A DNA stretch of 64,000 nt from Jaminaea rosea (lineage: Eukaryota > Basidiomycota > Exobasidiomycetes > Microstromatales): NCBI RefSeq assembly GCF_003144245.1, contig NW_020289989.1, positions 310,001 to 374,000 on the forward strand, in the 5' to 3' direction. Shown here one piece after another: positions 1 through 33,242 of this stretch. Position 1 is the first letter of the stretch. Every line of letters starts with the position of its first letter. The position numbers and the translations under genes are program-made. A model generated the notes under the pieces. It saw only the letters and a program-made list of their open reading frames with translations. It did not search any database and had not been told where the DNA came from.

Positions 1-1278
1 ACCCTCGTCTGATCGTCACACCGAGCTCAGGGGAAAAGCCGGACAAAACGAACAAGTATCTGGCCGAAGACAATACGAAAAGCGGCATGGCAGAGATGGA
101 TCAGAAGGGCGTCTTTACCCTGAGCAAAACCCAGCTGGACGAGCACATCAGCCGCAAAGGAGGTTTAGCAGACCACTTCGACCATCCCCTGCTGGTCATC
201 CGTTCGCGGCTGATGCTCTTGCACTACGATTACGCAGAACTCAAGATCGATCACGCGCAGGCGGAAAGTATGATGTACTACTACAGCGAAATAGAGGCTG
301 ATTATCGTTGCGCTCGTTGTGGCAAGCACATCGATGACGATGATGAGTCTTGCGACGAGGAAGAACATCAGAAGAATCATTGCAACTGCCCAGCTCCATC
401 AAGAAGCGACCAAAACAATGTTGAGCCTATCGACCATTTCAGCTCAACCAAAATTTCGGACGTTTTCAACACCAGCGATTTCATTCTCAGTCAGGCTACC
501 AATCTAGTCAATGCCTCGTTCGCTAGCATCCTCCATCGTCCTCTATGGGATCAGCAGACCCTTCAGCAGCTTCGATACCTGTCACTAGGACCCACGCCGC
601 CTGGGTGGGAGGACGAACTACGCTGGGATCATGTGCACCTCCCCTGCCTCGAGCAGTTGCGCATCGCTTTCTCCTTCATTGACGAAATCTCGCTCGGAAG
701 CTCGTGGATCCCTTTGGCCCGCTGCCCCAGCTTCGCAGACTCCAGTGGGATTGTGCCCTCCCGCCTTCGTACCGATATCAGTCCGTAGGGTGAGACTACC
801 TTGCGTTTTGAAGCTTTGTGTGATGATGGACTGACACCAGAGCATCGTCGATTTCTTTCCTTGAAGAGACCATGGCGGATTTGCTCGTCGCATGATTTTG
901 CCGACCATCAATACCTTGCAAGGAAGAACAGCCAACACAAGGGAGCAGGGGGAGGAAGTCCTTCAGCCATCGTCTATCAGCAACCTGCCAGCCAAGGTCA
1001 GACCGCGCTCCATTGAAGTTCGTCTGCACCCCAACGTGATTAGCGATTTGCTCGCGATGGCCCCTACTGCAGAGATTCGAGCTGCGTGGCAACGTGGGCT
1101 GAGCATGCCCGATGCACCCCATCGCCTCCGGCTAGTTAAAAGTCGCGCTGTGGGAGATAGCAACGAAAGTAGCTGGCTTCATCCTGATCAAGATTTGCAG
1201 GTACATTTCCAGGAAAGCGAGCATTGGTGGGAGGAGCGAGCGAGTGGAGCGAGCAAGCTGGAAGTAGAAGAGGCGTAG
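1..1278 (+). pseudogene. F-box-like array copy A1, 5' end outside window
   Basis: This is the 3' part of the first array copy. The window opens inside its HYPRL motif, and the frame is open from position 3. The D-H-FDHPLL box, a C-A-R-C-G motif (near 310) and a leucine-rich stretch with L-S-L-G-P follow. The expected ending L-P-Q-L-R-R-L-Q-W-D is present but in another frame from about 700-716, so one small indel appears to break the copy. A phase-2 intron fits at 790-866 (GTGAGA donor). The last exon then reads in frame through the tail domain (I-E-V-R-L-H-P, A-A-W-Q-R-G, PHRLRL, W-W-E-E-R) to a stop at 1278. The function is inferred from the family: a candidate SCF substrate adaptor. The indel could be a sequencing error. 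Confidence 0.7.
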
Positions 1279-1937
1279 TCGAATGTGTGGGAGGGCATCT
1301 TTTCCTGACTGGACGCAACAGCTAATCCGGGCGTTGAAAAGCTTCGACGTGAGGATGAACTCAATCTCATTACGTCGCGCTAAGGCTGAGAGTCAGTGAT
1401 GCTTGTCTACAGTAGCTGATCTCAAGAGGTGAAAGAAACGACAAACCATTCCACGAGACTCCGACCGCCTTGCTCTCTCTCCTGACTCTTCGGTACCTCA
1501 GTAGGAGATCAAGACGATGGAGGAAAGCGGCATGGGGTCGTAGAAGCAGGCGGGATGGTACTGCACGAGGAGATGAGAATACATGGGGCAGCACACGAGC
1601 TGAGAAAAGGACAATGCAGAGGGATCAGGTTGACAATGCTATCTGGAAGCAGGAGCGTCGCACTATCTAGGCATCGAGTGAAACAACCTAGTGCATAGCC
1701 AGACCTGTGAATCAAAGACATCGTCTCGGTTCTTGCTAAAGCGAGAGAGGGAGGCCAGCGCTGCCGCGATGTTTCCTTCTGACTGCATCCCATCGAGCTG
1801 CTCCTGGAGGAGAATGAGGCACCAATCAACAGATTCTTGCCGCCTTGGACAGAAAGCGATGATGGAGTGCAGCGCTGCAGAAGCCACTCTTGTTACGAGA
1901 AGGGCGACTTCCTGCCCGCAACCCCCGCTGGCCACTC
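1279..1937. other. Intergenic, no gene seen
   Basis: This 0.66-kb stretch lies between the tail of A1 and the shared upstream element of A2. I see no conserved family motif or other convincing reading frame in it. Confidence 0.5.
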
Positions 1938-1956
1938 CGCACTTCCGTGCCGTGTC
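1938..1956 (+). promoter_or_regulatory. Shared upstream element of A2
   Basis: The sequence is CGCACTTCCGTGCCGTGTC, about 164 nt before the ATG of A2. GCAC-TTCC-GTGC is an inverted repeat. Near-identical copies precede most other array members, so a regulatory role is inferred. Confidence 0.6.
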
Positions 1957-2103
1957 ACTCGCCCGCGACGAGGCGAGTTGAGCGCGTCGAAGCCAAACTT
2001 CCTTCCTTCTCTCTTCCCGCTTCATACATCTCCCGATGATCTCATCGTTCTGACCATCGTGCGCCGATCCTGCTCCTGACCTTCCTCTTCCAAGGTGACG
2101 GTC

Positions 2104-4581
2104 ATGCCGAAGTATGAGCCCAGCCGCGGAGGTGAAATAAGTGGCGGCGGGTACGCAGCAGAGCATTGCCACGATGAGCTCGGATGGGATGATGCTCCCG
2201 ATGCAGATCCATGGCTCGGCAGCCCGCTCACTGCTAGTCATTCTGGCCATGCGAAGTCTACCCCATCTCTTGTCAACTTCTGGACTCTACCACACGAACT
2301 TCGCACCGCCATCTTCTCCCTAGCTGCAGATCTGACCTCATACCAGCCCGACGTCGCTACTCTTGCCAGCCTCAGCTGCGTCTCTTCTTCATTCCACACG
2401 GAGTTCAATCCGCTCCTCTACAAGCAGGTTCAGCTCACACGACCATCAAAGCTTGGCGCATTCTATCGCGGTCTTACTCCCCGCAACGGCAAGCTCGTCA
2501 GAAGCCTACACCTTGGCCCGATCGAGGTGCTTTCAGGCTCGTGGTGGCCGCTTGACGAAGACGAGCATCCCAACCTCAAGAAGCCTCTGCTTTGGATCAA
2601 GACCTCTCTCAACGGAGAAGACGAGCCTGACTTGCACCTTCCTCGCTGGTGTCGTCCAGAGAGGGACTTCAATTGGCAGCTCAGCGCGAGAGATTGTCAA
2701 ACCAAAGCCGTTCATGGAGCGCTGCAAACTGCGTTGAGAGAGATCGACATTGATCCGTACGAGACGTTCGCAGATCGACGAGGGGCGGACATCGGAATAG
2801 TGAGTGCGGGGAAAGGCCTCTTGATCAGCTGCGCCATCCCCCTAACTACTGTTGATCACGTCCCTTTCCCCGCAATCCTGCTGCAGAATGAATGGACACT
2901 ACGCCTCTTCCGCCTCCAAGCCTGCCTGGACCTCTACTTGGTAGAGATGGCACGCCTCGAGGATGAGCGAGGCTATGCAATTCAAGACTGGCAAGTCTCC
3001 AGCAGGCCAACCCATCATCGTCACTTTCCTTATCGATGCCGCACTGGCAGCTGCGAGCACTATCCTCGTGTTCACATATCGACACGAGACCTGGCAATGA
3101 AGAAGGCAAAGGGAGAGGGCAGCAGCCAGAAGCAAAAGAGGAAGAAGGGAGTGAGGCAGACAGTGAGCGATGGAGAGTGGGACAGAGACGAAGAGTCGCC
3201 GCCTTCAGCCGCTCGCGACGACAAGAAGGGACCAGCAGTCGCTAGTGGCACCGCTTTGACAGACATGGCTAAGCCCGTCATGCCCCGCACACGGGAAAAG
3301 GACAATGGGCTAGTCTTCAGCCTGGCTCACCTTGATCAGCATCTCGCCAAGGGCAGACAAACCGACCACTTCGATCACCCGTTGCTCATTGCCCGTACTC
3401 CTCTCAAGTTCCTCGCGCTCGACGATGCTGGGCGTGTCAAGGTCGATCATGATGGCTCTGAGAGACACGACTACTATAGCGACGAAGGGGGCATCTGTCC
3501 GCATTGCGGGGACATTGGCTGTCCAGAGGCGCCGTATCTCATTCCGCTAGGTGAAAGCAGCTCCCAATAGGAGGAAGCGAGTGGCTCTGCCCCGCGCTCT
3601 TCACCGACGCGCGAAAAGGGCGCTAGAGGCAAGGGCATGGAAGACTATCTTAAGCTGAATGGCGTGCTGGACATCTCGCGTTCAGTGCTTGCGCTCACGC
3701 CTGGTATCGTCAACCTCTCATGCACAGGGTACTTACATCGCTCCATCTGGTCAGAAGGGCTTCCCTACCACAACTCACTACGCTGCCTCTCTGTGGGGCC
3801 TATGACTCACTTTCAGGAGGACTCGTTGGACGAACTCGCATATGCCGATATGCCCCGTCTCGAGCGACTGCGACTTTGTGGCGAACGGCTCACCGTTTGC
3901 ACGGCGAGCGCCATCGCTGGTCTTCCTCCTGACTACAAAGAGCTCAATCCCCTGCCACACCTGAGAGAAGTGCAGTGGGATACAGGCAATGAAACCGATG
4001 GGGATGAGATGTGAGTAGCAATGGGAACACCGCAGATCAGTGCAGCCTTGAAGCTTGACGAGTCAAGCCTTTTCGATCCGATTCACTGCTACAGGAGGCA
4101 TTTGCGGATCCTCGACAAGCTGCAGGGTAGCGGCAGCAGATCACGTGCCAGGCGCATCATTAAGAGAGTCAGTGGGATGAAGGCCGGCCAAGGAGGGCCT
4201 TTTGACGCCCGTGCGACTTCGGGGAAGCGCGACTCGCGTTTAATCCACGTTCGCCTACACCCGTCCGTTGTCAAAGGATTCCTCGAGGATGCCGCTTCTC
4301 CCACTATCCAAATGGCATGGCAGCAGGGGCTTCCTGTCAGAAACGGGCACAACCGCTTGCTACTCACTGAGAGTCGCGCTTTGGGCAAAGGGCGCGATGC
4401 ATGCGATTGTAGCTGGCGCGACCCTCACGAAGACGTTGACGTGCACATGCAAGGCAGTGTGCAGTTCTGGCGAGAGGCGGCGAGATGGTGGGATACTGTG
4501 AAGGCTCAGGTTGAGGACGAGGAGCAAGGAGAGGCAATGGTGGCAGATGAGGAGGTCCTTTGGGATGAAGAGGCAGACTGA
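2104..4581 (+). pseudogene. F-box-like array copy A2 with one in-frame TAG
   Basis: The start is the ATG at 2104 (or 2095). The TRSKHRLS head is not recognisable here. An F-box-like segment (F-W-T-L-P-H-E-L-R, then L-S-C-V-S-S-S-F-H) is followed by S-L-H-L-G-P. Intron 1 is 2800-2886 (GTGAGT...CAG, phase 0), and exon 2 opens N-E-W-T-L-R-L-F. Then come C-x4-C-x-HYPRV, a long charged linker, D-H-FDHPLL and C-P-H-C-G. A TAG at 3568-3570 interrupts the frame. The same frame continues without another stop through the leucine-rich region and L-R-E-V-Q-W-D to the phase-2 donor at 4011 (GTGAGT). Exon 3 starts at 4068 or 4095 and ends with the tail domain at 4581. An intron at about 3551-3623 (GTGAAA...CTAG) would remove the stop but has a weak donor. 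The copy is therefore either a very young pseudogene or unusually spliced. Confidence 0.7.
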
Positions 4582-4757: not shown

Positions 4758-4780
4758 CCGCCACTTCCGTGCCGTGTCCG
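4758..4780 (+). promoter_or_regulatory. Shared upstream element of relic rA
   Basis: The core CCACTTCCGTGCCGTGTCC lies about 126 nt before the relic's ATG. It survives although the gene behind it has lost its middle. Confidence 0.55.
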
Positions 4781-4887
4781 TCCGTTCATCTCATTCAAGT
4801 GGACTCGCTCGTCCTTCAGCTTGCATCTTTCTCTCTTCCTTTCCTCGCCGTCATCTCTGCTGCGCCTTCTCCTCTTTGCATCCCACC

Positions 4888-5350: not shown

Positions 5351-5372
5351 GCGGCACTTCCGTGCCGCGTCG
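5351..5372 (+). promoter_or_regulatory. Shared upstream element of A3 (perfect dyad)
   Basis: GCGGCACTTCCGTGCCGC is a perfect 7-bp inverted repeat around TTCC, about 169 nt before the A3 start. It is the most symmetrical copy of the element and suggests a dimeric binding site. Confidence 0.6.
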
Positions 5373-5523: not shown

Positions 5524-7922
5524 ATGACCAAACGCGGCAAGCGCCGGCTCAGCAGGGGCAGCCATGCTCCAGGAGAGTGCTGCACCAAGCATCCCAAAAG
5601 CATTGCTAATCTCCTCTGCCCCGATCTCGACGGCTATAAATTCGCCCTCCCCTCCCTCTCCTACTTCTGGATCCTGCCCGAGGAGCTCCGTACCTACATT
5701 TTGAGCCTGGCATGCGCCGCTTCTTGTTCCAGCTCACTTCAGCGCCTTTGTCTTTACCTGGACTTGCAGACCACGGCAAACCTCTCTGCAGTATGCAGAG
5801 ACTTCCAGGCTGTATTCAAGCCTCTACTGTTCGGCAACATCCGCCTCGATCGACCCAGTAGTCTTGAGCGCTTCGTAGTCGCCTTGCAGAGCGCTCCGCA
5901 AAATGGTGAGCTTGTCCACTCCTTGCACATGGGCCCTGTACAAAATCTTCCGTGCCAGTGGTGGCCAGTCGACGATTTCTGTTTCGCAGACGTCTTCACG
6001 CTCGACGAAAAGGAGCCGCTCCTGAAAACCTCATTGACGCAGAAGGACGAAGCCGCACGTTTACCTCGATGGTGTAAGCCGGAGAGAGAATGGGATTGGC
6101 ATCTAGAGGCCCCCGACTGCGAGCAGAGGGCCGTACACGACGCTGTAGCTGCGGCGACGGAGCAGATCGACGTTTATCTCTACGACTGGTCTCTTGACAA
6201 CGGTTGTGAGGTCTCGATGAATATCGTGAGTACAAAGAAGCGTGTGGCGCAGCTCGGGAGGTGGTGGCTTACCCAGATCGAATGAACCTTCTTCTGAAGA
6301 AAGAATGGACCATCAGGGTATTTCAGGTACAGGCGGCTCTGGATCTGTATCTCATGGAGATGAAACACATCGAAGATGCGCGTGGCTATGCAGTAGAATC
6401 TTGGAAAGTCGAAACTCCTCAGACTGGAAATATTCCCGCGCAATGCCTGAAGGGCAAGTGTGGTCACTACCCACGATTGCTGATCGCAGGCAGCAGAAGG
6501 GACCGCCAGACGAAGAAGGAGCAAGCGGCATCAGGTCTGAATACCGCTCTCGACAGCAGGAAGGGAGACATGGGCGTCCGCATCAAAAGCAGCCAATTCA
6601 GCAACAAGAAGACGCGAAAGGAATTCTTCACCATCACACCTTCGCAACTCAACAGCCACCTTGCTAGACCTGGCGCGGCCAGTGACAATTTTCACAACCC
6701 CCTCATCATTGCGCGCTCAGAGCTCCATCTACTTACGGTCGACGCCCCAAGCCGAGTCGTTGTCGACTGGACGTGCCACGAGGAGTGCTATAGCGACATA
6801 GAGGACGACGACGACTGCGATTGCGCCCAATGTGGGGGCGAAGAGAAGCTCTACAACAAGTGGCCACATGGACGCTTCGATACCAAGAAGTGCATCACGC
6901 TGTCGGCGGCTTCGACAGCGAGCTTTTGTGAGCACGGGCTCGACAAGACCACCATCAACGGCATATTGAAACTCGCGCAGTCGGTATTGGACGCAGTACC
7001 CAGCCTCGCCAATTTGTCCCTAACAAGCTTCTTGCATCGCTCATTGTGGGACCTCCAACAACCACGTTTATCCTCGCTGCGATTTTTTAGCCTGGGACCC
7101 CTTGCTGATTCAGACGACGACTGGCTTGACTATATCCTTTCGACAACGCACACGGTCCTTCCTCAAGTCGAGTATTTGCGGCTTTGCGCAGTAGATGCCG
7201 GTGAGACTATGGCGTGGAGCATCGCAGGGCAGCTAGGGGGGCTTTTGCCTAGGCTGAGAGAAGCGCATTGGGAGTTGGACGAGCCTCATAATGATGATCA
7301 GTGAGTCTCTTCTTCGCAGTCGGGACGCAACGCATTTGCACCTGCAAGGCTGATCACTTCAGCCTTCTCGCCGACAAGATCCATCCAGACACTTCGGATC
7401 ATCAACGCCCTCGCTGGCCGTACGAGACCGCGTAGCGCAGACAAGCGCGATGTCCTGAGCGATTCTGTGCGGAACACGACTTCAACGTCGGCTGACCACA
7501 AGGACAACATTGACACTGCCCCCTCGTCACGCTCAATCGAGCTGCATCTCGATGCTGACCACCTTACCGCCATTCTCGCGAAGCTCCTCGACGAATCCCC
7601 TGAGGCCCATGCCGCTTTCTCCACAGGGACCCTTTTGGGGGACTCACTGCACAGGATAAAGCTGCTCAGGAGCAAGGTAGCTGGCCCACACTGGTGGGAT
7701 CACGGTGACTGGCTTGTGGAGGACGGGTCACAAACCCATTACAAGCAAAGCGTACAATGGTGGGAAGATAGAGCCATGGAGGTGGCGCTTGAGGAGAGCC
7801 GAAAGACGGAGGAGGGGGGAAAGAAGGAGACGCTTGGGGAGGGAAAGATTGAAGGAAACAATCGCACAGCGGCAGGTGACGAACAGACGCAACGTGAGGC
7901 GAAGTGGGAGAACCAAATCTGA
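5524..7922 (+). CDS. F-box-like array protein A3 (intact, 758 aa)
   Basis: This is the intact clade A copy. The exons are 5524-6225, 6300-7300 and 7349-7922. They join in frame (phase 0, then phase 2) to 759 codons including the stop. The head is M-T-K-R-G-K-R-R-L-S. The F-box-like domain covers about residues 48-115 (F-W-I-L-P-E-E-L-R-T-Y-I-L, then L-S-A-V-C-R-D-F). After intron 1 come K-E-W-T-I-R-V-F, C-L-K-G-K-C-G-HYPRL (about 280) and D-N-FHNPLI, a variant of the otherwise strict FDHPL box. Next are C-A-Q-C-G (about 408), leucine-rich repeats (about 460-560), and the exon 3 tail domain with P-x-L-H-R-I-K-L and Q-W-W-E-D-R. The F-box family recruits substrates to SCF ubiquitin ligases, so that role is inferred; the substrate is unknown. 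Intron 2 is only 48 nt. Confidence 0.75.
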
Positions 7923-8259: not shown

Positions 8260-8995
8260 ATGATGACCCGCTCCAAGCATCGGCTCAGCTGTTCCAGCTT
8301 CAACGCGAACGACGACAGCGAAGAGTCTCATCGGCTTGATCGCGTGGTCGAGATTGCAAGGAGCGACAGTGCCGTTGACAATTTACCTCAGGCTCATCTG
8401 CACCACTTCTGGCTCCTGCCTCAGGAGCTGCGCCATCTCATCCTCAGCCTCGCTGCCGGGATCAGCGCGTACAACCACGATACAACCGTCCTCTTCTCAC
8501 TATCCCTCGTCTCTCGCGACTTTCACAAGCAATTCGATGACCTCTTGTACAAGCAGATCAGAATCAGCCGGCCAAACGTACTGCCAGCTCTGTACAACTG
8601 CCTATTCCTGCAGCCCACCAATGGCAAGCTGATCAAGAGCTTACATCTGGGACCGATCGAGCCACTCAGCGATACATGGTGGCCGCTGGACGGAAAAGCG
8701 CATCCTGCATGTCTCCGACCTCTTCTCTGGATCAAGACTTCCTTGGATGGGACCAATAGGAGATTGCCGCTTCCGAAATGGTGTACACCAGAGCAAGACT
8801 TCAGCTGGATGCTGTCAGCGACTGATTGCCAGACAAGGGCCGTTGCGGACGCGCTCTTCGCTGCAACGGGGTACCGGTAAACAGAGGCAAGCGTGGAGGT
8901 CCAATGAGCGAGAGGAAAGAGAGTGGTTTTTACGAGATGTCGCAAGTACGGAAGCTGAAGATGGTGAGAGGGTCCCAGGAGGCTGAGCCGCTAGC
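8260..8995 (+). pseudogene. F-box-like array copy A4, truncated after exon 1
   Basis: The start M-M-T-R-S-K-H-R-L-S is typical. The F-box-like domain (F-W-L-L-P-Q-E-L-R-H-L-I-L, L-S-L-V-S-R-D-F-H), S-L-H-L-G-P, W-W-P-L-D and D-C-Q-T-R-A-V are all well kept. The frame ends at 8880, exactly where the other copies approach intron 1. Shortly after, in another frame, a fragment E-E-R-E-W-F-L-R-D-V-A (about 8907-8945) resembles the end of the family tail. If so, A4 lost its middle and most of the tail domain, as relic rA did. A secreted or nuclear role cannot be judged from this fragment. The 206-residue F-box-only product could still be made. Confidence 0.65.
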
Positions 8996-8999
8996 GGCT

Positions 9000-9014
9000 C
9001 GTCACTTCACATCC
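9000..9014 (+). promoter_or_regulatory. Shared upstream element of B1 (degenerate)
   Basis: CGTCACTTCACATCC keeps CACTTC but not the GTGCC half. It lies about 150 nt before the B1 start, at the usual place. Confidence 0.35.
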
Positions 9015-9153
9015 ACTCCCGTCTTGCCCGCTCCGCTTCTCGCGAGCGAGATGGGCGACCGAGCTCGCGCACTTTCTTTCCGTCCTTTATCTCCGAATCC
9101 ATCAAAGCCCTCATTCCTTTGTCCGAGCGCCACGACGGTTGAGAGCGCTCAAG

Positions 9154-10341
9154 ATGTTCACGAGGTCAAAGCATGGGCTGAGCTCTGCCAACAGCGAAGA
9201 CAGACAACAACCCAAGCGGGCAAGGGTCGAAACGCAAAGCACAGCACCCTTCTCCCTCCTTTGTAGTCTGCCCGAGGAGCTCAGGTCATTCATGCTAAAG
9301 CTCGCCTGTCGTTTGCCTCACTCACCTTCGTCTCAAGCAGCATCGAGCACTTCTTCATCCCCATCAATTACCAAGGCGATTTCCAAGTTTATGACCACGA
9401 CGAGTCGTACTACCGCTTCTTCTGCGAAGGATGCGGCAAGTACCACGTCGCGCCAGCCACAGACTTGGACTACGGCCTGGAGGACGACATGGCCTGGTCG
9501 TCTGGCTTGACAGAGTCTGGGTGTCCCGATGCAACCACCCTTCCTGGCTTGCTTGCTTTGTGCCGCGGAGTACTGCTGGCGATGCCCCACATGACCAACC
9601 TCCCACTCACAGGCAGTATGATCCGCCCCCTCAAGCGGAATTCTCCACCCCTCCAGGCCCTGCGCTTCCTCTCATTGGGCCCTTGGACAGAGGCGCCAGA
9701 AGACCAGCCTACGTTCGCTTCCACCCGTTTCTCCAGCCTTCAAAAGCTGCGCGTCTGTGGCGAGGGCTCGGAAGGATGGCCATTGCATAACATTGTCGCG
9801 CAAGAAGGAAGGCTTCTGCCGCAGCTACGGGAAATGCAGTGGGACTCGGGGCGACGTTTCTTCATGGACCGGTGAGAAGCTCGCCTTGAACGTTCCTCTC
9901 GACCGCGCGACAGAAAGACAAAGTCTAATGTCATTGCACCTTTTCTCACGCTCAATCGGTCCTCGTAGCTTCAAAAGCTTCATCGACGCGCTCAAAGGTA
10001 GAGCGCAGCTCAGCTCTAGCGCGTCATTCTCCTCCCCTTCCGCTCAGCAAATGCAAACGCAGCAGCAGCAGCAGCAGCAGTCCTCTTCATCTTCCTGTCT
10101 CTTTCACTTTCGCATCTCCGCCAAGTCTCTCGAGCTGATTTGTCGTGAAGCGCCCAGCGCCGAGGCTCGCTCCGCGTGGCTCCAGGGGATTCCATACAAC
10201 AACGAGCCTTATCGAATTCTACTTGTCGAGAGTAAAGCGGGCGGAACCCGTCTCGGTCGCGCAGAGGGAACAGTTCAAGGCTTTGACATACTCTACGAAG
10301 AGACTCAGCGCTGGTGGAGAGCGTGTGCTGAGGAGGCGTGA
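9154..10341 (+). pseudogene. F-box-like array copy B1, middle deleted
   Basis: The ATG at 9154 opens M-F-T-R-S-K-H-G-L-S, then the basic patch K-R-A-R and the F-box core L-P-E-E-L-R-S-F-M-L-K-L-A-C. After about 9345 the sequence jumps, in another frame, to the region after the FDHPL box: Y-D-H-D-E-S-Y-Y-R-F-F-C-E-G-C-G-K-Y-H. The clade B leucine-rich block follows (L-P-G-L-L-A-L-C-R, L-P-L-T-G, R-P-L-K). A phase-2 intron fits at 9872-9968. The last exon holds a run of seven CAG codons (poly-Gln) and the tail domain, stopping at 10341. About 900 nt of the usual gene is missing. It is either a pseudogene or a short derivative whose two parts would need an unseen splice. Confidence 0.65.
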
Positions 10342-10842: not shown

Positions 10843-10861
10843 CGCCCTTCCGTGCCATAAG
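10843..10861 (+). promoter_or_regulatory. Shared upstream element of relic rB
   Basis: CGCCCTTCCGTGCCATAAG lies about 160 nt before the relic's former start codon. The CTTCCGTGCC core is intact. Confidence 0.5.
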
Positions 10862-13660: not shown

Positions 13661-13676
13661 AGGCACGGAAGTGGCG
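13661..13676 (-). promoter_or_regulatory. Shared upstream element of B2 (minus strand)
   Basis: On the minus strand it reads CGCCACTTCCGTGCCT, about 132 nt before the B2 start. Its orientation follows the gene, which supports a directional promoter element. Confidence 0.6.
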
Positions 13677-16714: not shown

Positions 16715-16732
16715 CGCGCCACTTCCGCCTGG
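16715..16732 (+). promoter_or_regulatory. Shared upstream element of B4
   Basis: CGCGCCACTTCCGCCTGG lies about 141 nt before the B4 start. The GCCACTTCCG core is intact. Confidence 0.55.
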
Positions 16733-20595: not shown

Positions 20596-20612
20596 GAGCC
20601 ACTTCCGCTCAC
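20596..20612 (+). promoter_or_regulatory. Shared upstream element of C1
   Basis: GAGCCACTTCCGCTCAC lies about 120 nt before the C1 start. Confidence 0.5.
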
Positions 20613-20719: not shown

Positions 20720-22853
20720 ATGAACAAAACCAAGCGCAGTGAGGCTACCGAGGGTGAGAACAGCAAGTCGCAGAAGAAGACAAAGCGAGATGCGCCGTCG
20801 TCACTTTCCCTCGCCGGCTTCGCGGATCTTCCTCACGAGCTTCAAGTGACCATCATCAACTATGCCTGTGAGACGCCTTCGTCCGACGACATGTTCTACC
20901 GCGCAACCTGCAATGAGCCGTTGCTCGACATCCAGACTACTCTGTCCCTGAGCTTAGTCTCACGGGAGCTTCATCCCCACGTAACCGTGCTTCTCTATCG
21001 GAGGATTCGAATCGTTCGACCTACAACTCTTGCACTCCTAGCCGCCACCTTGACTTCTCGCCCGGCCCTCGGCAGGGTGATACGGAGCTTACATGTCGGG
21101 CCAGATGATGAGTTGCCAGAGGAATGGCATCCGATTGAAGAGATAAGTTTCGAGGACCCCGACTCGTGGGGATCATGGGAAGGCGACTCGCCCCCACCTC
21201 CTGAAACCCGCTTTAGCCATTCTCTGGTCGATCACGAAACCTCGAAGCAGCCTAAGGACTGCTCGTGGTCATACACCCTGGATACGGCTCGTGGTTCCTG
21301 TCAAGATCAAGCTGTGCATAGTATTCTCGGCGTCGCTCAGGAAGTGATCGATGTCAACTTGATGAGGGAGGGATATGCGATGTCAGGGGAGCTGCTTCAT
21401 CCTGTGAGTACCAGCGCTCAGTCCTACTGTACCATCGCTGGCTGCTCACGCTCCTCTTTGCTTTTTCCATCGACCGCAAAGGACGAGTGGACCCTTCGCA
21501 TCTTCGAAGCTCAGGCAGTGCTCGATCTTTACCTCCTAGAGCTCCGTCGACTTCAGGACCTCGGCCAGCCAACATCATCCACCAAGACCGGCAAAGGAGT
21601 CGAGTGTGGCCACTACCCACGTCTGATCCTGAATGGCTACGACGACGCCTCTACCAGTAGATCCAAGATCACTCGGAGAACCTTTGTCCTTCATCGATCG
21701 CAGCTCCTCCGCCACCTTTCGCGTCACAAAAGCTACACAGACAGATTCGATCACCCTCTCCTATTCGCCCGCTCTTCCTGCGGTATGTTCGTCCTTGCCG
21801 GCCCTGGACGAGCGGGAGAGGACAGCGACTCCCTGGGCCAGTACGACCCGTATGAGCTCCGGGACATCGACTTTTCCCTTCTTGAAGAGGACGCCGAAGA
21901 CTATGCGGACCAATTCTCACCCGACCGACTGCCAGCCACTACTCCTGCCCTTGATGATGGTCTTGACCCCGCTCTCAACAGCACCGCCACCCTGGGCTCC
22001 CTGCTTTCTCTCACTCGCTTCGTGCTCGTCGCAACGCCGAGGCTGCGCAACCTGTCACTCACAGGCTTCCTAGAGCGGGCAGTGACGGGCCTCCGCACCG
22101 GCGCCGAGCTCAAAGACCTTCGTTCCCTTTCCATCGGCCCACCACCTCCTTTCTGGCATGCTCCAATGACACTTGATAGAGGTTGCCTCTTGACGGTCGA
22201 GAACTTGAGGATCTGTGGAGTTATGCTTTTAGAAGAGGAAGTGGACGCAATTGAGAATGGACTTCCCTTGCTCAGGCGGATGCAGTGGAGTATGGCTGGG
22301 AAGTTTGATCAAAAGCATTCGATCAGGTGAGAGAGAGACAAAGTGACGGCTGAGCATGGCGGCGTGTCCTGCAGCACTGACAGGCTTCCACCTCGTGCTC
22401 TCGATGCTCTTTAGCCTGACTGATACGATCAATCGGCTTCTCAATCGCCGCAGCAAAGAGGTCCAGGATTCTGCGAACCCTGACAGGGCTGTCGTAGGCT
22501 CCGAATCCGCAGAAGAACAGCATACAGGCAGTTCAAGCAGCGCAGTAGTCGATAGCAGCTCATCGCCCATGAGCAGCATGAGCCGGGACGATGACGCGTT
22601 ACCTCTCATCGAGATCAGGCTACATCGTCGCGATCTCGAATCGGTACTCAACACGGCGCCAACGTCCGATATGCGTACTGCCTGGACTGAGGGTAGACCA
22701 CTGTCCGATGCCTCTCGTCGCCTGAAGCTTGTGCGTGGAAAAGCGGCAGGAAAGGGTACCAGCTTCAGAGGGTTGGGATTCACGACTGGCGCATGGAAGG
22801 CATTGTACGAGGAGGGGAGAGAGTGGTGGGAAGACGAGGCGAAGCCGACGTGA
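20720..22853 (+). CDS. F-box-like array protein C1 (intact, 655 aa)
   Basis: The exons are 20720-21403, 21482-22326 and 22415-22853; they join phase 0 then phase 2 into 656 codons including the stop. A lysine-rich head (residues 1-25) precedes the F-box-like domain (about 34-105: F-A-D-L-P-H-E-L-Q-V-T-I-I, L-S-L-V-S-R-E-L-H). S-R-P-A-L-G-R and S-L-H-V-G-P follow. Exon 2 opens D-E-W-T-L-R-I-F-E-A-Q and holds C-G-HYPRL (the first Cys of C-x4-C is missing), D-R-FDHPLLFAR, and an acidic stretch replacing the C-x2-C motif. Leucine-rich repeats with L-S-L-T-G-F-L-E-R-A complete exon 2. The tail exon carries I-E-I-R-L-H-R, T-A-W-T-E-G, L-K-L and E-W-W-E-D-E-A. Its closest relative is the next gene, C2. 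An SCF adaptor role is inferred. Confidence 0.78.
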
Positions 22854-23167: not shown

Positions 23168-23186
23168 TCCGCCACTTCCGTCCGCT
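23168..23186 (+). promoter_or_regulatory. Shared upstream element of C2
   Basis: TCCGCCACTTCCGTCCGCTG lies about 166 nt before the C2 start. Confidence 0.55.
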
Positions 23187-23337: not shown

Positions 23338-25469
23338 ATGCGCCCCAAGAAGCAGCGCAGACGGGCTGAGGGGCAGCACGACGATGACACACGCAGCGGC
23401 AGGGCGAGCAAGCTTGCCAGACGAGAGAGTGAGAATCTCAGAGGCTCCCTAGCGATCTTTGTACGCCTCCCGCAGGAGATTCAGATCCACATCATCATTT
23501 TGGCATGCAGGCTTCCTTCACACGTAAAGGGCAGACAAGAGCAAATTGGATTCCGCCCCCTCGACCTCGACATGGCAACTACACGCTCTCTTGCGTTGGT
23601 ATCTCGTAAATTGTACCCACGCGTGGTTGGCATACTGTATCAACACGTCCGTCTTAGCAGGCCAAGCGCGCTCGCTTCTTTCGCATCAGCATTGACTTCT
23701 CGACCAGCGCTGGGTCGCCTAGTCCGGAGCTTGCACGTCGGACCTGACGGGGAATTGTCGAGACGCTGGCATCCGCTCAAGGAAGTCGAGTGGCCCCATG
23801 ATCCCGAAAGACCCTGGTTGAATGGACTGCCTCCTTGCTACTATATCGCACACTCTGAGGATCTGCCTCGTCTGCCCAGCGCATGTGAGAAGATATGGAG
23901 ATGGTGCTTGGATCCGGATGTGGAAGAGGAAGATTGCCAATCTCGGGCAGTCTCACAGGCCCTCAGGGTGTTGCAGGAAGCGCTTGACGTTGACTTGCAA
24001 CGTCAGGGCGAGACCTTGTCGGGGGAAATTGTTGACCCAGTGAGCGTCATAGGCGTGTCATTCAGCGGCGTGGTGCTCTGGTTGACGCTGCATCTTCCTT
24101 TCACCCGTTTAGCCCGAATGGACGACGCGCGTATTCGAGGCCCAGGCGGGTTTGGACCTCTATCTGATGGAGATCGGCCGTCTCGAGAGCATGGCCGACG
24201 CAAAGCCGACCCTGAAGAAGTGCAACGCCGTAGAATGCCTCCACTATCCTCCTCTGCGATTGGACGGCGTCGCTCAGAATCCCAAGCCATACCTGTACGA
24301 CGAGGATCAAGCATTCGTAATCCGCTACTCGCAGCTTCTTCAGCACCTCGCAAGACCGGGTGCCTTGACTGATCGCTTTGACCATCCTTACCTGTGGTCA
24401 CGCTCTGGGGTCGAAATGTTCGTACTCGATGGCCCTAGTAGGGCAGGAGGTGACGTCGCTGATCAAGACGATGGCTTTGACCCCCATGACATTCGCGATT
24501 TTCCCTTCGACATCGTCGAGTATGAGTCTGAGGACTTCGCGGATCTGTTCACCCTCCAAGGCGTTGACGGACGCGGTCCGGATGCTCTCCGCGCAGACTT
24601 TGATCTCGCCCTTGATCCGGCAATTGGCAGGACGCAAACACTTGGCTCAATCCTCAACTTGGCACGCATCGTGCTCTGCTGCACCGCAAGGTTACAAAAT
24701 CTTTCCCTGACGGGCTTTCTTGAGCGCGCACTCTGCGGAGAGCGCTTCTGTACGGAGCTCAAGGATCTACGCTCGCTCAGCCTTGGTCCTCCTCCACCCT
24801 ACTGGTACGCGCCAATGACTCTTGCCGGCCCTGTGATAAGTCGAGTCGAGAACCTACGGATCTGTGGAGTCATGCTGCGAGAAAAGGAAGCGAAGTCGAT
24901 AGCAGGAGATTTTCCCTTTTTGACCAAGATGGAGTGGAGCATGGCAGGCCGTTTTGACGAGAAGCACTCGATCAGGTGCGTCGGAGACCGGATGAGTTGC
25001 GAATGAGAGCGCTGAAACTGACTAGCCATCGTCATTTATGTTCTCCAGCCTCAGCGATACCATTGACTGTTTGCTGAAACGTCGCAAGAGCGAAGCGATG
25101 ACTGCAATTGGTGCAGACTCCGTTAGCAAAGCAGCCCAGCAAGAGAATCAAGCAGTCAGCAGCGCAGAGTCGGCAGATAGCGCCTGCGAAGGTTCGCGCC
25201 CCTCAGCCCTTATTGAGGTCAAGTTGCACCCTGATGACGTGGAGGAGCTCTTGCGTCAAGCGCCCGACCCCGACGTTCGCACAGCCTGGCTGGAAGGCCA
25301 GCCCTTGGCCGATGCGCCGCGTCGTCTGCGGCTGATCAAGGGAGCTGCGGCACAGCAGAGAACCTACGGACGTGGTTGGGGATGGACAAGCGAAGCATGG
25401 TGTGCCTTATATGAGGAGGGAAAAGATTGGTGGGAGGAGGAGGCTCGCTTGACGAAGTGGGTCACCTGA
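23338..25469 (+). CDS. F-box-like array protein C2 (intact, 661 aa)
   Basis: The exons are 23338-24039, 24113-24975 and 25049-25469. The introns are 73 nt each (donors GTGAGC and GTGCGT), phases 0 and 2, giving 662 codons including the stop. A very basic head (M-R-P-K-K-Q-R-R-R) precedes the F-box-like domain at about 40-110 (F-V-R-L-P-Q-E-I-Q-I, L-A-L-V-S-R-K-L-Y). S-R-P-A-L-G-R and S-L-H-V-G-P follow, close to C1. Exon 2 opens P-E-W-T-T-R-V-F-E-A-Q and contains V-E-C-L-H-Y-P, D-R-FDHPYL, an acidic stretch, and L-S-L-T-G-F-L-E-R-A. Exon 3 is the tail domain with I-E-V-K-L-H-P, T-A-W-L-E-G, P-R-R-L-R-L and W-W-E-E-E-A. It is the cleanest copy of the array and a good reference for the family. 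Confidence 0.8.
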
Positions 25470-25940
25470 GCCGCAGAGGGGAATGGGGCTGAAACGGGAG
25501 GTAGAACTCAACCAGACGGTGTCTTACCGTAGAAGGCGGCGAGGAAATGGGCAAGTTTCTGTGCGTGCTTGCCTTGTGTGCAGCGACAGAACCCCGGCAA
25601 CCTTTCAGCTTGCAAGGCAGAAGAGAGAAGAGCTATCAGTGACAAGCGCAGTGAGAAAGACATAAATGCATGTAGCCTTGGTCGCAGAGCGATGATTCTG
25701 TGTGAGAAGGGTACCCTCTCAAGATGCGGCGGGCAGTTGGGCAATCAGCCCCGTCCCCCTCCCGAAGGGACTTGAAGTCACGGTGGCAGAAGCCGAGGCC
25801 CAAAAGGAGCGTCGAGCCAGGCTTCGGTAGTGCCAAAAATGTAGCGTGGACCTTCCTGCCGAAGGCCCTCTATTTGAGTCACCTTGCCTTGATACCGACT
25901 CAGACGCCTCGAGCACAGCTACCGACCGTATGCGTCGGAG
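25470..25940. other. Intergenic, no gene seen
   Basis: This stretch lies between C2 and the solo tail relic. It may hold the degraded body of the gene that owned the tail, but I find no head or core motif in it. Confidence 0.4.
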
Positions 25941-26198
25941 AAGCCGCTCAATTTCGAAATTGCGCTCCATCGAGATGACTTGACAGCAATGCTGGACAGC
26001 GCTCCCTCAAAAGAGATACAATTGGCTTGGCAGCGGGGCAAGGAGCTACCAAATGTTCCTCACCGCTTGAGACTCGTGCATAGTCATGCGTCTACCAAGG
26101 CGAATCGCTCAAAGAGGATTTGGGGCGGTACGAGCGATGCCTGGGTGGCATTGTATGACGAGGGAAAGGAGTGGTGGGAACATGAAGCGCTGGGCTAG
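25941..26198 (+). pseudogene. Relic rC2: solo tail domain of clade C
   Basis: An open stretch reads F-E-I-A-L-H-R-D-D-L-T-A-M-L-D-S-A-P, then L-A-W-Q-R-G-K, PHRLRL, A-W-V-A-L-Y-D-E-G-K-E-W-W-E, with a stop at 26198. This is the whole exon 3 tail domain, closest to C2. No F-box, FDHPL box or repeats precede it, and no copy of the shared upstream element is near. The domain itself is unbroken, so it is either a recent partial duplication or a kept free-standing domain; there is an ATG at 25989. Confidence 0.7.
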
Positions 26199-26748: not shown

Positions 26749-26765
26749 CGCTCCACTTCCGCCCC
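26749..26765 (+). promoter_or_regulatory. Shared upstream element of D1
   Basis: GCTCCACTTCCGCCCC lies about 232 nt before the D1 start. Confidence 0.5.
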
Positions 26766-26984: not shown

Positions 26985-28596
26985 ATGAGCTCAGCACACA
27001 CTTCACCATGGGATCGAAAGCTGACTAGCCTAAGCGGCTTTGAAACGCTTCCTTCTGAGCTCAAGACGTACATTACTCAGCTTGCCTGCCGTCTTCCACC
27101 AATCCGCTGTCGAGCGCGTCGAGATGCCTCACCGACAACAGTTGACAAGAGCACAGCGCTGAGCTTGGCTCTTGTCTCTTGCGACTTCTACAACATTGTG
27201 ATTGTGGAGCTCTACAAGCACATTCGTATCACCCGCCCTAGTGCACTTCAGATGCTTGTCACCACCTTCACCACACGCGCAGCTTTGGGCAAGCTGGTGC
27301 AAAGCTTATTCGTAGGCGTCGAACAGCACATCGACGAGGATTGGTGGCCTCTTCGAATCGTCACTTCGCCTGCATTGCAAGGACAAAAACAATGCCGTAC
27401 CGTCTTCAGAGTATCATTGGGCCACCAAGACTCCATTCGGCCATCGTGGTGCTGTCCCAGCCATGACTTCGATCTCAATGAAGAGCTCAATGAAGAGCTT
27501 GACAACAAGGATTTCGTCGCAAGTCCCATGCGCGCTGTCAGCGCTGCCATCAAAGCTGCTGCTCAAGGGATAGGAGTCAGTCTTTTAGAAGCAGAGGCTG
27601 ATTCTACTGGAAATGAAATCGGCAGCGTAGGTTCTTGGCAGCCATGCTTTGTCGGTACAGTAACATGATTGTAGACGCTGATCATTGGACGTTCTCCCCG
27701 CTTCCCACTGTCCAGGATGCTTGGCATATTCAAGTACTGGAGACTTGTGCAGCCATCGAGCTCTTTTTGATGCGCATGCGACAATGCGAGGACGAGCAAA
27801 GGAATGCAAAGCACGATGTTGACTACCCTGTGCTTGTCATCACCAAGCCTCCGATGCCGAAGCATTCTGTCAACCGTAGTCATCGCTCTTTCAAGGTCTC
27901 ACACGGCGAGATTACGGAGAGGCTAGCCGCTCCAAAGACCAAGTACGATCGTTTCGATCATCCCCTTCTCTTTGCCCGTGTAGGCGTCCCTTGGGCTGCT
28001 CGAGGACCAGATGGCCAATTACACTCTGGGGATGGAGACGAAGACGCTATAGTAGTTGCCGAAGGGGAAAACCTCGCCGACGTCTTTTCACCTCGTGATA
28101 GATACGAGTCACCTTCTTCGGATGAGCCTCTCGTAGCCATCAATAGCGCATCCCTTTCTCTGGATCTACCCAGCTTTGCGACGATAGGCGGTATCCTCTC
28201 GCTCGTTCGGTCTCTTCTTGGCTTCACACCTTCACTACGGACGCTCTCTCTGACGGAGTTCCTCGAGCTTGCTGTCTGCGGAACACAGTCGCCGCCAGCG
28301 CTGGACAGGCTGCAATCTCGTACCCTCTGATCGAGGTCTGTCTACATCGCGACAACGTCGCCGCAATTCTCAAAGCAGCGCCTTCACAACGCATTCGAGA
28401 GGCATTGAGTGAGGGTGGCTCTCTACCAAACACGTCCCGCCGCCTCAAAATGATAGAGCACTCGAACTCTGCGACAGAAAGTGGCTACTCGACATGGGCC
28501 GCCATCAGCAAGCGTCGTGATAGTGAAGAGGGGAATTGGAGTTGGTGGGAGAACAGCGCACTTACGTACGGGACCGAGTCTATGCGGCTGTACTGA
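26985..28596 (+). pseudogene. F-box-like array copy D1, repeats and tail intron deleted
   Basis: Exon 1 is 26985-27626 with F-E-T-L-P-S-E-L-K, L-A-L-V-S-C-D-F-Y and D-W-W-P-L. Intron 1 is 27627-27715 (GTAGGT donor, phase 0). Exon 2 opens D-A-W-H-I-Q-V-L-E and holds D-R-FDHPLLFAR and L-S-L-T-E-F-L-E. The C-x4-C-x-H motif is replaced by V-D-Y-P-V-L. Near 28310 the leucine-rich segment breaks off and, in a new frame, the tail domain starts at once (P-L-I-E-V-C-L-H-R, E-A-L-S-E-G, S-W-W-E-N-S), ending at 28596. The last repeats and intron 2 are gone. Exon 2 as read ends at 28330, so a product of about 419 residues without the tail domain is possible. Confidence 0.65.
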
Positions 28597-28785: not shown

Positions 28786-28807
28786 CCCTACTTCCGTGCC
28801 TTTGTCA
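28786..28807 (+). promoter_or_regulatory. Shared upstream element of D2
   Basis: CCCTACTTCCGTGCCTTTG lies about 106 nt before the D2 start. Confidence 0.55.
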
Positions 28808-28895
28808 AGCGGCTTTCCTCCTTCCTCTCCTTTTCATTGAGATCTCAACTTGCCCTTCTTCTCTCTGCTTCGCCAAGGGAACGCAGCGCCAGCTC

Positions 28896-30878
28896 ATGAT
28901 GGAGGCTGCTTCGCTGCCTCTGAGGGCCGGTCTCACCTTCTTCAACCTGCCTAGCGAGCTGCGCAATAACATCTTGCACCTGGCTTGTGAGGCGCCTCTT
29001 CTCCCCTGCAAACATCATCCGCCCCATCGAAACCTCTGCATGAGAACGATCAAGGCCCTTTCTCAAGTATCACGACATTTCTACCCTCTTCTAGTGCCGA
29101 AGCTCTACAAGCATATCCGCATCGTACGGCCCTCCGCCCTTTGCTCTCTTCAGGCAACACTGTCTGCTCATCCTGCTCTAGGCTCGTTCGTAAAGAGCCT
29201 TCACCTTGGACCGGAAGATGCTCTACCTGTTGGCAGCTGGTGGCCTCTGAAGCTCATCGACGGACGCTTGCACCTCACGGCGTCATACTCCAGCAAGTCT
29301 GAGCGATCCTCTAGCTGCATGTCTGAAGAAACTCAGTGCAACCTTCGGTTGGCCCTCGACAACAAGGACGTCGACAATGCGAGTGCCTTCCATCGAGCGG
29401 CGTCTGCTGCCATTGAGCGGGCGAGCCAGTCACTCAATGTCGATCTTTTTTGTCAAGGAAAGATGTGGAAAGGGGAAGATCTTGACATGGTGAGCTGATT
29501 AGGATACAAACGATCCCTTCAGACCCACTCATTTCTGTCTGCCCTGGCAGGATGCGTGGCATACTGTATACGGGTGTGGGAGACGCAAGCGGCAGTTGAA
29601 CTCTACTTGAAGGCGATGCAGCAGCAAAAAGACCCAGCCGACCGTATGACAACAGGTCGCGAAGTGCTGACCGATGCTACAGACTACCCCTCTTTGGCTA
29701 TCGCCTCTTCGGCACTGGCCGACTCACCCGAACATGTCTACCAACTGACCCTTGGCCAGATTCGCTCCTGGATGACGAGAGTTGGTAGTCACCTTGATCG
29801 ATTTGATCACCCAGTCCTCTTCGCTCGCTCGGGACTGCCATGGACTGCAGCAGCCTTTGACGTTAAGCACTCGGGATTGTCTAGTGGCCTCGACGATGCG
29901 GGACAGGCTTTTACCTTCGTGGATGCTGCGTCGCGCCAACTAGGCGGCATCCCGCCTTTTGCCCCCAGCTTGCAAGACCCTATGAGCATCGGGCTACCCA
30001 ACATAGCTACTACCGGTGGCCTTCTGGCTCTTGCCCGCTCAGCAGTGTCTTTCATGCCTCGCATCAGCACGCTGTCGCTGAGTGGCTTTCTCACGGACCT
30101 GACCGACGGCAGTCCCTCTGCTCTTCAAGTCTCCACGCTCAAAAGATTGAGCTCTGGTCCTCCCTCAGAAATCTGCCCAGTCACCGAGTACGTATTTTGG
30201 AAGAACAAGACTATCGAACGGGTCAAGAAGATGCGCATTTGCCAGCACATTTTCAATCGCTTCGATGCCAGCTTCTTCTCAGGCCACCGTGGAATCATGC
30301 CTGATCTAAAAGAGTTGCAATGGACGCTGCTCCGACCTTATCCGTATGAAGCAGATGATGAGGACTTTAAGTGAGCATGCCCCGGCAGAAGCTGCGTGCT
30401 CAACCTCACCGTCTCGCTGACCAAGGTGTCCCACCGAAGTATCGCCCGAGTCGCTGCACAGGCCGTTGGACTCAGTGATGAGCTCTATGAGCGGCTATGC
30501 GACTTTGCCGAAGAGCATCCAGGCGAGGAGCCAACGCCCAAGGAGTGGTCCACCGAGGGCAAAAGCTCGGAAGGCCGTTCGCCTCAATTCAATGGACGAC
30601 GTGGCCCAACATTCATCGACCTCCGTCTGAGCGACAATGACCGGCAAAAGGTCATTGATGACGCGCCTTCTGATGCCATGCGTCACGCCTGGCGTACCGG
30701 CGAGCTCTCACCTCATTTGCCTTGCAGGCTCAAGGTGTCTACCAGTCCAGCTGCTGATGGCCGCGCCTTCTCACCTCCTGAGGGGTCCTTGATGACACAA
30801 GAGTTGTATGAGGAGGCGTGGGAGTGGTGGGACCAAGCTGTGCTGGAGAGCGACGCGGAAAAGGATTCCATTCTGTGA
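28896..30878 (+). pseudogene. F-box-like array copy D2 with a frame change at exon 2
   Basis: The ATG at 28896 leads directly into the F-box-like domain (F-F-N-L-P-S-E-L-R-N-N-I-L), so the basic head is lost. S-L-H-L-G-P and W-W-P-L-K follow. The phase-0 donor is at 29490 (GTGAGC) and the acceptor CAG ends at 29550. Exon 2 starts D-A-W-H as in D1, but the remainder (V-W-E-T-Q-A-A-V-E-L-Y-L) is in a different frame, a net shift of two bases near 29563-29580. The later part has D-R-FDHPVLFAR, L-S-L-S-G-F-L and L-K-E-L-Q-W-T. A phase-2 intron fits at 30371-30475 before the tail exon (F-I-D-L-R-L-S, H-A-W-R-T-G, L-P-C-R-L-K-V, E-W-W-D-Q-A). Both C-x4-C and C-x2-C are absent. Confidence 0.65.
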
Positions 30879-31046
30879 GAAGGGAATCAGGATGGTGATG
30901 TCAGAGAATGAGGAGGATCGGAAGGCGATGGAAAGTCATTACTTTGCCAGCCATCATTTTGCGAGCCGTCACTCTCGAAACTCATTCATCTGCTTGCGTC
31001 CGCTCGCCCACCCGCCCGCTCGCTTCCTTTAGACTACTCTAGTGCT

Positions 31047-31062
31047 TGCCTACTTCCATCCC
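31047..31062 (+). promoter_or_regulatory. Shared upstream element of D3 (drifted)
   Basis: GCCTACTTCCATCCC lies about 106 nt before the D3 start. It keeps (C/T)ACTTCC but has A for the following G. Confidence 0.4.
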
Positions 31063-31156
31063 TTGCTTCGCAACAAAGGCCGAACTACTTGCCTTCCATC
31101 ATCTCTTCTCTTTTCGTTTTCTTCGAGTCCTGCAGCTCTCGCGGTACTCCTCTGCA

Positions 31157-33242
31157 ATGACAGGGGGCGAGCACGAGCTGTACAAAACGAAGGCTGTCGG
31201 CGCCAACGACGGCAAGATCGAAGGCGCCGCCGCAGGAGACCGATCGCAGCACAATCTCAATGCGGTGAATGTTCAGCCCGTCCGCAGCCTCTCGGGCTTT
31301 TGGCTTCTTCCCCGCGAATTGCGAAGTCACATCCTCACACTCGCCTGCACGACCACTCGCCGTCCTCATCAAAGCACCAAAGGCCGCTCGACCGACTGCA
31401 CAGAGACCATCTGTCGTCTTGCTCTCGCCTCTCGCCACTTTTACGCGATGATGGTCCCACTTCTTTGGCAGCATATCCGCATCACAAGGCCTTCAGAACT
31501 CAAGATCTTGCAAGCTGCCGTAGCCAACCGTCCCTCTTTGGGCCAGCTTGTCCGGAGCTTGCATATTGGAGCGGATAATGAATTGCCCGGCGATTGGTGG
31601 CCAATCACTGTGCGAACGACCGATGAAGGCCTTCAGGTCAGACGTCTGAGGTGTCAATTGATCCTTCCTGACGATCAGCGGCAAAGGCCTTGGTACGTCT
31701 ACGTAAGCGATTTCTATATTGAATCGACCGGCGCCGGAGTCTCGGGAGCCATCTCCAATGCTATTCAAGCTGCGTTCTATGACCTCGACGTCGATCCGCA
31801 AATTGAAGGGCGCAACCACTCTGAAAGGCCCTATTGGATCGGTGTGTACAGGCAGACACACTGACCTGATTTATAAATCGCTTCCGCTCACAAAAATTGT
31901 TCCTCTTCATGTGGCAGGATGAATGGCACGCGCGTATATTCGAGGCTCAATCGGCTTGTGAGCTGTACCTGCTAGAGGTAGGACGGCTGGAGCAGAAAGA
32001 TCCCAAGACCAACCCGAACGACATTTCACATCCTCGACTCCTCATCGTCTCCAAGTTGCCTGCGTCGTCTGACGACCATCGAGACGTTACCGACCACAAT
32101 GTCTTCATCTTGCATCGGTCACAGCTCCTCGAACGAATCGCCAGACATTCAAAAACCGATCGCTTTGATCATCCTTTGCTGTTCATCCGCTCGGGAGTAA
32201 TGTGGACTGCTGTCGACCGTAACGGAGAAGAGCATGAAGGCGGTTCTGGTGACTTGGATGACTTTGAGACCGAAAGGATTAAAGACGTCTTCTCTACTGA
32301 TATACACACTCGCGGGTACGACAGCGACGACGATGATGACGACGCCTACACAAACAATCTCTGCAATCCGATCGAGCACGCACTACCCAGCACAGCGACC
32401 GTAGGTGGTATCCTCGGTCTCACTCGGTCCATTATCGCAATTGCGCCATTCATCGAGAACCTGTCCCTCACTGTTCCTCGATCGCGCTGTCTGCGGCCTG
32501 CGCTCCCCGCCCCCTCTCGAGATGCTCAAAGCTCTCACCCTGGGACCTCCCTGTGATATGTCGAGGGATTGCCTCCATTTTCAGCACCCCGCCCTGGAAT
32601 CGATCGAGAGATTGCGTTTGTGCGAGTATATCCTCGTCGATGCTGAGGTGGCCAACATCGCCGGTCATGGCCGTAGCTTGACCAGTCTCGAGCATTTTCA
32701 GTGGAGCGATGTCACCCTACTTTCCAGCTCAGACAGGTACGTCACGGCCCATCACAATTTCTGGCGAATCGTTGTCATTGAGAGCTGCTGCTGACTTCCC
32801 AGACTTGATTGCATCCAGCAATCGTCTCAACCATTGCATCCATCGACTTGTAGGCTTGGACGATCCTGCGAAAGCGACGCCCAGAGACCAAGAGCAGCCA
32901 GATCGCAAGAGAAGGCGCAATTGTCACGAGAATGACGACCGGGAAGTCTCGCCTCAGCGATGGTTGCCAGGATTTGAGGGTCGGCTGAAGCTCGTTGAAG
33001 CTTGCCTACACCCAGACGATGTACAATTTGTCTTGGACTATGCCCCCACCGTCGAGCATGGCACGGCTTGGCTGGCAGGCACACCGGGGACGAAGGGCGA
33101 TACATGCTTTCACCTATCTGCTCAGCAGCCTCCGCCTATAGATCCTGTGCTACGATGCCCGATCATATCGACGCAGCACGCGCTGTTCGAAGAGGGCAGG
33201 GAGTGGTGGGAGCGGTACATGAAACTGACGAGATTGCGCTGA
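31157..33242 (+). pseudogene. F-box-like array copy D3 with one frameshift
   Basis: Exon 1 is 31157-31843: F-W-L-L-P-R-E-L-R-S-H-I-L, L-A-L-A-S-R-H-F-Y, S-L-H-I-G and D-W-W-P-I. Intron 1 is 31844-31917 (GTGTAC, phase 0). Exon 2 opens D-E-W-H-A-R-I-F-E-A-Q and holds S-H-P-R-L-L-I and D-R-FDHPLLFIR. An acidic Asp run (about 32320-32343) is followed by L-S-L-T. At about 32475 two bases appear to be missing inside L-S-L-T-G-F-L-D-R-A-V. The repeats continue in the shifted frame to a phase-2 donor at 32737 (GTACGT). The tail exon is 32819-33242 (L-V-E-A-C-L-H-P, T-A-W-L-A-G, E-W-W-E-R). It is the last array copy on this side. Confidence 0.68.

Follow-up and report, generated by a model that had tools for sequence, protein, structure and literature searches.

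Plants and nematodes are well known for large F-box families that change fast, and the S-locus F-box (SLF) arrays of plants hold some 15–20 divergent F-box genes at one locus. Here we describe a tandem array of F-box-like genes in the basidiomycete Jaminaea rosea, part of which lies in a stretch of 64,000 nucleotides (the window, C15:310001-374000; C15 is one of the 21 contigs of the 16.6 Mb genome, which is fungal in its genes, introns and relatives). The array spans C15:293,427–343,242, about 50 kb, of which the leftmost 16.6 kb lie outside the window. We consider it probable that it consists of old tandem genes of the FBXL type (F-box followed by leucine-rich repeats, LRR), most likely substrate receptors of SCF (Skp1–cullin–F-box) ubiquitin ligases, descended from one ancestral gene that multiplied locally. 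The array itself, its order, its age and its decay are well supported.

The array is similar to the plant SLF arrays in having many divergent copies at one locus, but no linked ribonuclease or mating function was seen, and the C-terminal fold is a different one. The FBXL proteins KDM2B, SKP2, FBXL17 and FBXL2 have an F-box and then a repeat solenoid, as is predicted for the array proteins, which show approximately 10–20% identity to them in structural alignments and differ from them by a large insert and by the lack of a Pfam repeat match. For Caenorhabditis, it is reported that 43–74% of the F-box genes of four species are in tandem, with intron change and gene loss, and that there are 39 to 1426 F-box genes per species, on several chromosomes and with measurable selection (PMC8665587). 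Tandem duplication, intron change and gene loss are common to both systems, whereas here a single locus holds old, saturated copies. In one table row, the number of F-box domains ranges from 3 to 43 across ten columns that presumably stand for species (PMC4469406), and a passage on mushroom development mentions F-box proteins in general terms only (PMC8893723). No paper on an array of this kind in this fungal group was found in the open-licence literature searched. We regard the array as a known kind of protein in an arrangement unusual for a fungus.

Extent and condition of the array

Gene models were made with a purpose-written spliced-alignment program, in which a family profile was threaded through the DNA, allowing introns, frameshifts and stops. 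This gave 18 gene-length loci (01 to 18), of which 12 touch the window, and a six-frame profile search added two short relics and identified locus 10 as a fusion of two partial copies. The starting profile contained loci 14 and 15; the other 16 loci, none of which had entered it, scored 553–906. With the final profile, containing all 18, the loci scored 1074–1819. Control scores did not exceed 153 (20 chunks from outside the array) or 129 (opposite strand of the same loci). Since the locus scores far exceed those of control chunks and opposite strands, chance is excluded as the source of the gene-family signal. A genome search with two array proteins gave 39 and 34 matches, all but one of them within C15:293505-342707; the sole match elsewhere was on contig C7 (E 6.5e-4). 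Only locus 11 is inverted among the 18.

A first-pass annotation of the window had described 17 loci of one family (13 recognisable copies and four relics) filling 33 kb from the first base of the window. One gene family in tandem is confirmed by the profile scores, and the array is real, but it does not start at window base 1: six further loci and the first 955 bases of locus 07 lie to the left. The count also has to be revised: 12 gene-length loci touch the window, of which one is truncated at its left edge and one is a mosaic built from two partial copies, and with the two relics there are at most 15 pieces.

The usual gene layout is three exons. The first intron is in phase 0, directly before the motif ..WTxRxFEAQAALDLYL, and is absent from the models of loci 10, 11, 12 and 13; its absence is common to loci 11, 12 and 13, which make one clade. 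The last intron, in phase 2, precedes the C-terminal exon, although it is in phase 1 in the model of locus 07 and absent from that of locus 16. Because these conserved introns interrupt them, the genes looked broken in plain reading frames, and only three copies (A3, C1 and C2, probably loci 12, 14 and 15) had been regarded as intact. This was wrong: with intron-aware models nine of the 18 loci are intact (02, 03, 04, 05, 06, 09, 12, 14 and 15), including four of the 12 in the window and five of the six wholly to its left. Intactness was checked by start codons, tails and odd introns; the raw models had 11 lesion-free loci before this scrutiny, and extra introns first modelled in loci 04 and 06 and at the 5' end of locus 17 proved unnecessary. 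Loci 01 and 08 are rated ambiguous because their extra introns cover a stop codon, one near the C-terminus of locus 01 and an in-frame TAG in locus 08, each escaped only via an unusual intron. The view that most copies are dead was rejected, as introns account for most of the apparent breaks. The death of copies was nevertheless correctly recognised, with seven of the 18 loci broken (07, 10, 11, 13, 16, 17 and 18), besides the two ambiguous loci and the two relics.

In window coordinates, and on the plus strand unless stated, the intact loci are 09 (5524-7922, introns 6226-6299 and 7301-7378), 12 (14419-16612, last intron 16110-16197), 14 (20720-22853, introns 21404-21481 and 22327-22414) and 15 (23338-25469, introns 24040-24112 and 24976-25048). 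The TAG of locus 08 (2104-4581), at about 3568, is inside a 48-base putative intron with a poor donor. Four of the seven broken loci carry one lesion only, and these probably broke late: locus 07 (1-1278, starting at C15:309046) has a frameshift near base 687, locus 17 (28893-30878) one directly after the first intron, locus 18 (31157-33242) one near 32473, and locus 13 (16860-19199) an in-frame TGA at 18183 in place of the tryptophan found in loci 11 and 12. Locus 11 (11349-13539, minus strand) has two frameshifts, while deletions mark the remaining two: in locus 10 (8260-10341) a 5' part (8269-8871) is followed by a second start at 9163, which a deletion has joined to a later part, and locus 16 (26985-28596) has lost the last part of exon 2 and also carries a frameshift. 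The two relics are an F-box end at 20244-20327 (E 8.4e-6) and a lone third exon at 25932-26189 (E 1.1e-22).

Predicted structure of the proteins

We infer the F-box and repeat folds from structure models and weak profile matches. Among the first exons of 17 copies (locus 11 was left out for its frameshift), one exceeded the curated cut-off of the F-box-like profile (locus 05, 26.3 bits) and 10 more matched below it; genome-wide there are 23 hits over the cut-off, including the one in the array. The F-box family PF00646 has 11 matches in the genome, none in the array. The 2EXR family (PF20150) matched four of the 17 first exons, at best with 18.2 bits compared to a cut-off of 24.8. The helix 1 pattern L-P-x-E-L...I is nearly invariant in the array columns, and the genome contains one Skp1 match. 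The predicted folds resemble those of leucine-rich-repeat proteins, with the F-box–LRR type at the head of the ranking but tied with others. The structural hits 5jh5, 6wcq, 6o60, 9wsq and 1fqv extend back to model residues 95–104, counting only the first and last aligned residue, but so do LRR chains without an F-box. The F-box start proposed earlier is thus weakly supported by sequence and not separately by structure comparison.

Because the predicted folds match leucine-rich-repeat proteins, the part after the F-box is most likely a leucine-rich-repeat solenoid, to which the third exon probably belongs. This part had been considered impossible to name; a fold can now be proposed, while it holds true that no Pfam family covers it and that no LRR family is among the Pfam matches of the array proteins. 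The family profile finds the repeats of KDM2B at E 0.002. The predicted repeat strands belong to the best-conserved parts (1.1–1.9 bits), whereas variation is greatest in inserts and loops (2.4–3.0 bits), and the large insert, with the motif DxFDHPLLFARSG, is situated between early and late repeats. A separate C-terminal domain apart from the repeats was considered and set aside: the C-terminal part has no Pfam family match, and in the full-length model it falls within the range aligned to LRR solenoids, judged by end points only.

Order, age, relatives and surroundings of the copies

Tree distance and gene order are correlated (Mantel 0.559, 0 of 20,000 permutations as high), and an adjacent gene is the closest relative for 12 of the 18 genes, a count that three of 20,000 permutations reach. 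The array-only tree (650 columns) contains the groups 01-02, 03-13 (support 99), 14-15 (100) and 16-18 (90), in order along the DNA, as had been proposed for the clades, although support within 03-13 is partly low (49–70). The idea of successive local duplications is supported by the correlation and the adjacent relatives; for the other six genes (03, 08, 09, 10, 13 and 18) the closest relative is 2 to 6 steps off. In a larger tree including outside relatives, 16-18 are no longer a group by themselves.

The duplications are old: identity reaches only 49% in the closest pair, synonymous changes have reached saturation, and window positions 1-33400 gave no DNA repeat. Amino-acid identity over the 36 pairs of intact genes averages 0.29 and is at most 0.49. 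In 11 pairs of array genes pS is 0.695–0.786 and pN/pS 0.47–0.81, and dN/dS is unusable because of the saturation. Direct or inverted repeats of at least 40 bases were absent from window positions 1-33400, where no sign of recent births was found either; recent expansion or gene conversion was rejected for this part on the absence of such repeats and the low identity of the closest pair. When neutral evolution was simulated to the identity of the pair 14/15, about nine stops per copy accumulated and none of 200 pairs was stop-free; the intact frames have therefore been under selection for most of their history.

Relatives were sought among 5.8 billion proteins, with about 8,000 candidates scored per search. 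Among these, locus 14 found 32 and the profile 51, all but one from a source marked 'lgn'. Five 'lgn' relatives, probably from one contig of 11,954 bases, sit in one clade of seven (support 96), and in the two further presumed same-contig pairs that entered the tree, the members are sisters (93 and 100). As presumed same-contig proteins group together in the tree, the relatives seem to carry clusters too. Outside relatives are interleaved with the array clades: P0018 groups with locus 16 (100), P0051 with 01/02 (100), and P0029/P0030 stand beside 03-13 (99). Because of this interleaving, the array clades seem to be older than the species splits, if the relatives come from other species.

In smut fungi, uncharacterised proteins (PFL1_02366 of Pseudozyma flocculosa, SPSC_03152 of Sporisorium scitamineum, UTRI_02094_B of Ustilago trichophora and others) have the same order of parts, including a C-terminal part corresponding to exon 3 of the array. 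Unlike the array copies, they are approximately 960–1040 amino acids long with long extra linkers, and they evolve slowly, with 56–72% identity to the P. flocculosa protein among complete proteins of named species. A search with the smut protein in a clustered database gave, among the matches listed, one match per named species for eight species (one partial), plus others. Root-to-tip distances are 0.13–0.21 for five smut proteins compared to 2.2–3.8 for the array genes; the root was placed on the smuts and this rate contrast needs that root, whereas the within-group distances do not. Related smut fungi thus seem to keep the gene as a single, slowly changing copy. Going by the named relatives of this one family, J. 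rosea would stand near the smuts (Ustilaginomycotina). Within J. rosea, a distant F-box-like gene at C7:595109-596587 (plus strand) shares a pattern in its first 110 residues with the array family. This gene (C7:595172) was considered as the lost progenitor and set aside, as only these residues match, and it is not a clear orthologue.

Directly left of the array is a gene for a HECT-type ubiquitin ligase (C15:290562-293255, plus strand; PF00632, E 1.5e-35), and two kinds of ubiquitin-ligase genes would thus adjoin. To the right, at 35659-43367 on the minus strand, three open frames belong to an ATR/Mec1/Rad3-type kinase gene (PI3/PI4 kinase, FAT, UME), which probably contains introns. Between array and kinase gene, a probable small secreted protein (33613-34299, minus strand) has, by eye, a hydrophobic start and GGNWNN repeats, and no Pfam match. 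The right flank also contains a piece of a DDE_3 transposase (56927-57754, minus strand; E 3.1e-13). The G+C content is 54–58% in the array (1-34000) compared to mostly 58–63% in the flank (34001-64000).

The upstream element and the maintenance of the copies

Of the 11 right-hand copies (08–18), 10 have an 8-base element, CACTTCCG, or a close variant of it at a distance of 107–232 bases upstream of the start, whereas all seven left-hand copies lack it. It is exact and in sense orientation upstream of loci 08 (1940-1947), 09 (5355-5362), 11 (13666-13673, minus strand), 13 (16720-16727), 14 (20600-20607), 15 (23173-23180) and 16 (26754-26761), and has one mismatch (TACTTCCG) at locus 17 (28789-28796), these sites lying between −107 and −231 relative to the start codon. 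A further exact copy at 4762-4769 has no gene start close behind and was possibly left by a lost copy; similarly, a 12-base form with one mismatch at 10845-10856 is without a close gene start and possibly comes from a deleted array gene.

The element was chosen as the commonest upstream word, present in seven of 18 upstream stretches with both strands counted, while the best 8-mer in 50 shuffles reached five. All eight copies in the window are inside the array, with none at C15:344-374 kb; 2.48 were expected, and none of 100 shuffles reached eight. With a weight matrix, 10 of the 18 upstream stretches (08, 09 and 11–18) beat all 396 control windows, which is circular for the eight sites that built the matrix but not for loci 12 and 18; locus 10 and loci 01–07 do not. 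A shared word upstream of loci 01–07 was sought, and none beyond chance was found. The longer form CACTTCCGTGCC has eight exact occurrences in the genome, and the array, with 0.3% of the genome's length, accounts for four. Two results argue against a general genomic role: when up to one mismatch is allowed, the genome has 108 sites of the 12-base form compared to 88 of its backwards-read control, which is little excess, and CCGCCACTTCCG occurs five times, two of them in the array, compared to 10 for its control. Six upstream stretches compared (08, 09, 13, 14, 15 and 16) have little else alike, and the best matches, 08-09 (E 0.001) and 13-16 (33 bases, E 3e-4), both include the element. Because three clades in the right part carry it while 03–07, of the same clade as 08–13, are without it, the element follows position more than descent. 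In the explanation that we prefer, it is a putative common control element of the right-hand part.

Alternatively, the array might be a product of genomic drift: the copies would be redundant SCF receptors whose gain and loss were a matter of chance, and nothing in particular would favour their diversity. The seven broken loci, four with one lesion, are what such drift would leave, and broken loci 11, 13, 16, 17 and 18 still have the element or a variant of it. However, intact frames of about 650 codons past synonymous saturation indicate long purifying selection on many copies, and the element has been kept where little else aligns, so that we regard drift as a rather unlikely account.

Non-self recognition or defence, in which the copies would detect foreign or rival proteins (of a virus, a mobile element or a mating partner) and mark them for destruction like the plant S-locus F-box genes, with turnover following the targets, appears improbable. 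The first-pass annotation had taken such birth-and-death turnover as typical of genes under conflict, which our results do not establish. Copy number, deep divergence, broken copies, the variable inserts and loops and the apparent age of the clades relative to species splits (locus 16 with P0018, 01/02 with P0051) would all fit. On the other hand, the predicted repeat strands, with which FBXL proteins usually contact their substrates, belong to the best-conserved parts, recent births are not seen in window positions 1-33400, and Pfam identified no mating-type or toxin gene among 11 flanking frames (10, three of them without match, plus one on the left). More specifically, this small-genome fungus could keep at one locus a repertoire of SCF receptors against non-self proteins, comparable to the S-locus F-box cluster of plants, with alleles and copy number varying in the population and a right half co-regulated via CACTTCCG; this we consider highly speculative. 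Equally doubtful is that the genes encode F-box-like or LRR scaffold proteins with structural or signalling roles outside ubiquitylation, which the weak F-box scores and the failure of structural matches to separate FBXL from other LRR proteins would allow, but the nearly invariant helix 1 and the Skp1 gene do not favour.

As substrate receptors, a role that we regard as likely, the array proteins would bind Skp1 through the N-terminal F-box, and the target of ubiquitylation would be held by the solenoid of repeats and its long, variable inserts; we infer the Skp1 binding, the ubiquitylation and what is recognised. One ancestral gene, which smuts seem to maintain as a single slow copy, would have been multiplied by local duplication in this lineage. 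Its copies would then have diverged without being homogenised, some breaking or disappearing, and a common control element upstream would have been retained in the right-hand part.

What in smuts seems to be one conserved gene copy is here a set of 18 deeply diverged copies at one place. The array is nearly invisible to Pfam, and Pfam-based annotation would miss it. Its compactness makes it suited to asking whether such repertoires persist for the sake of recognition or through drift.

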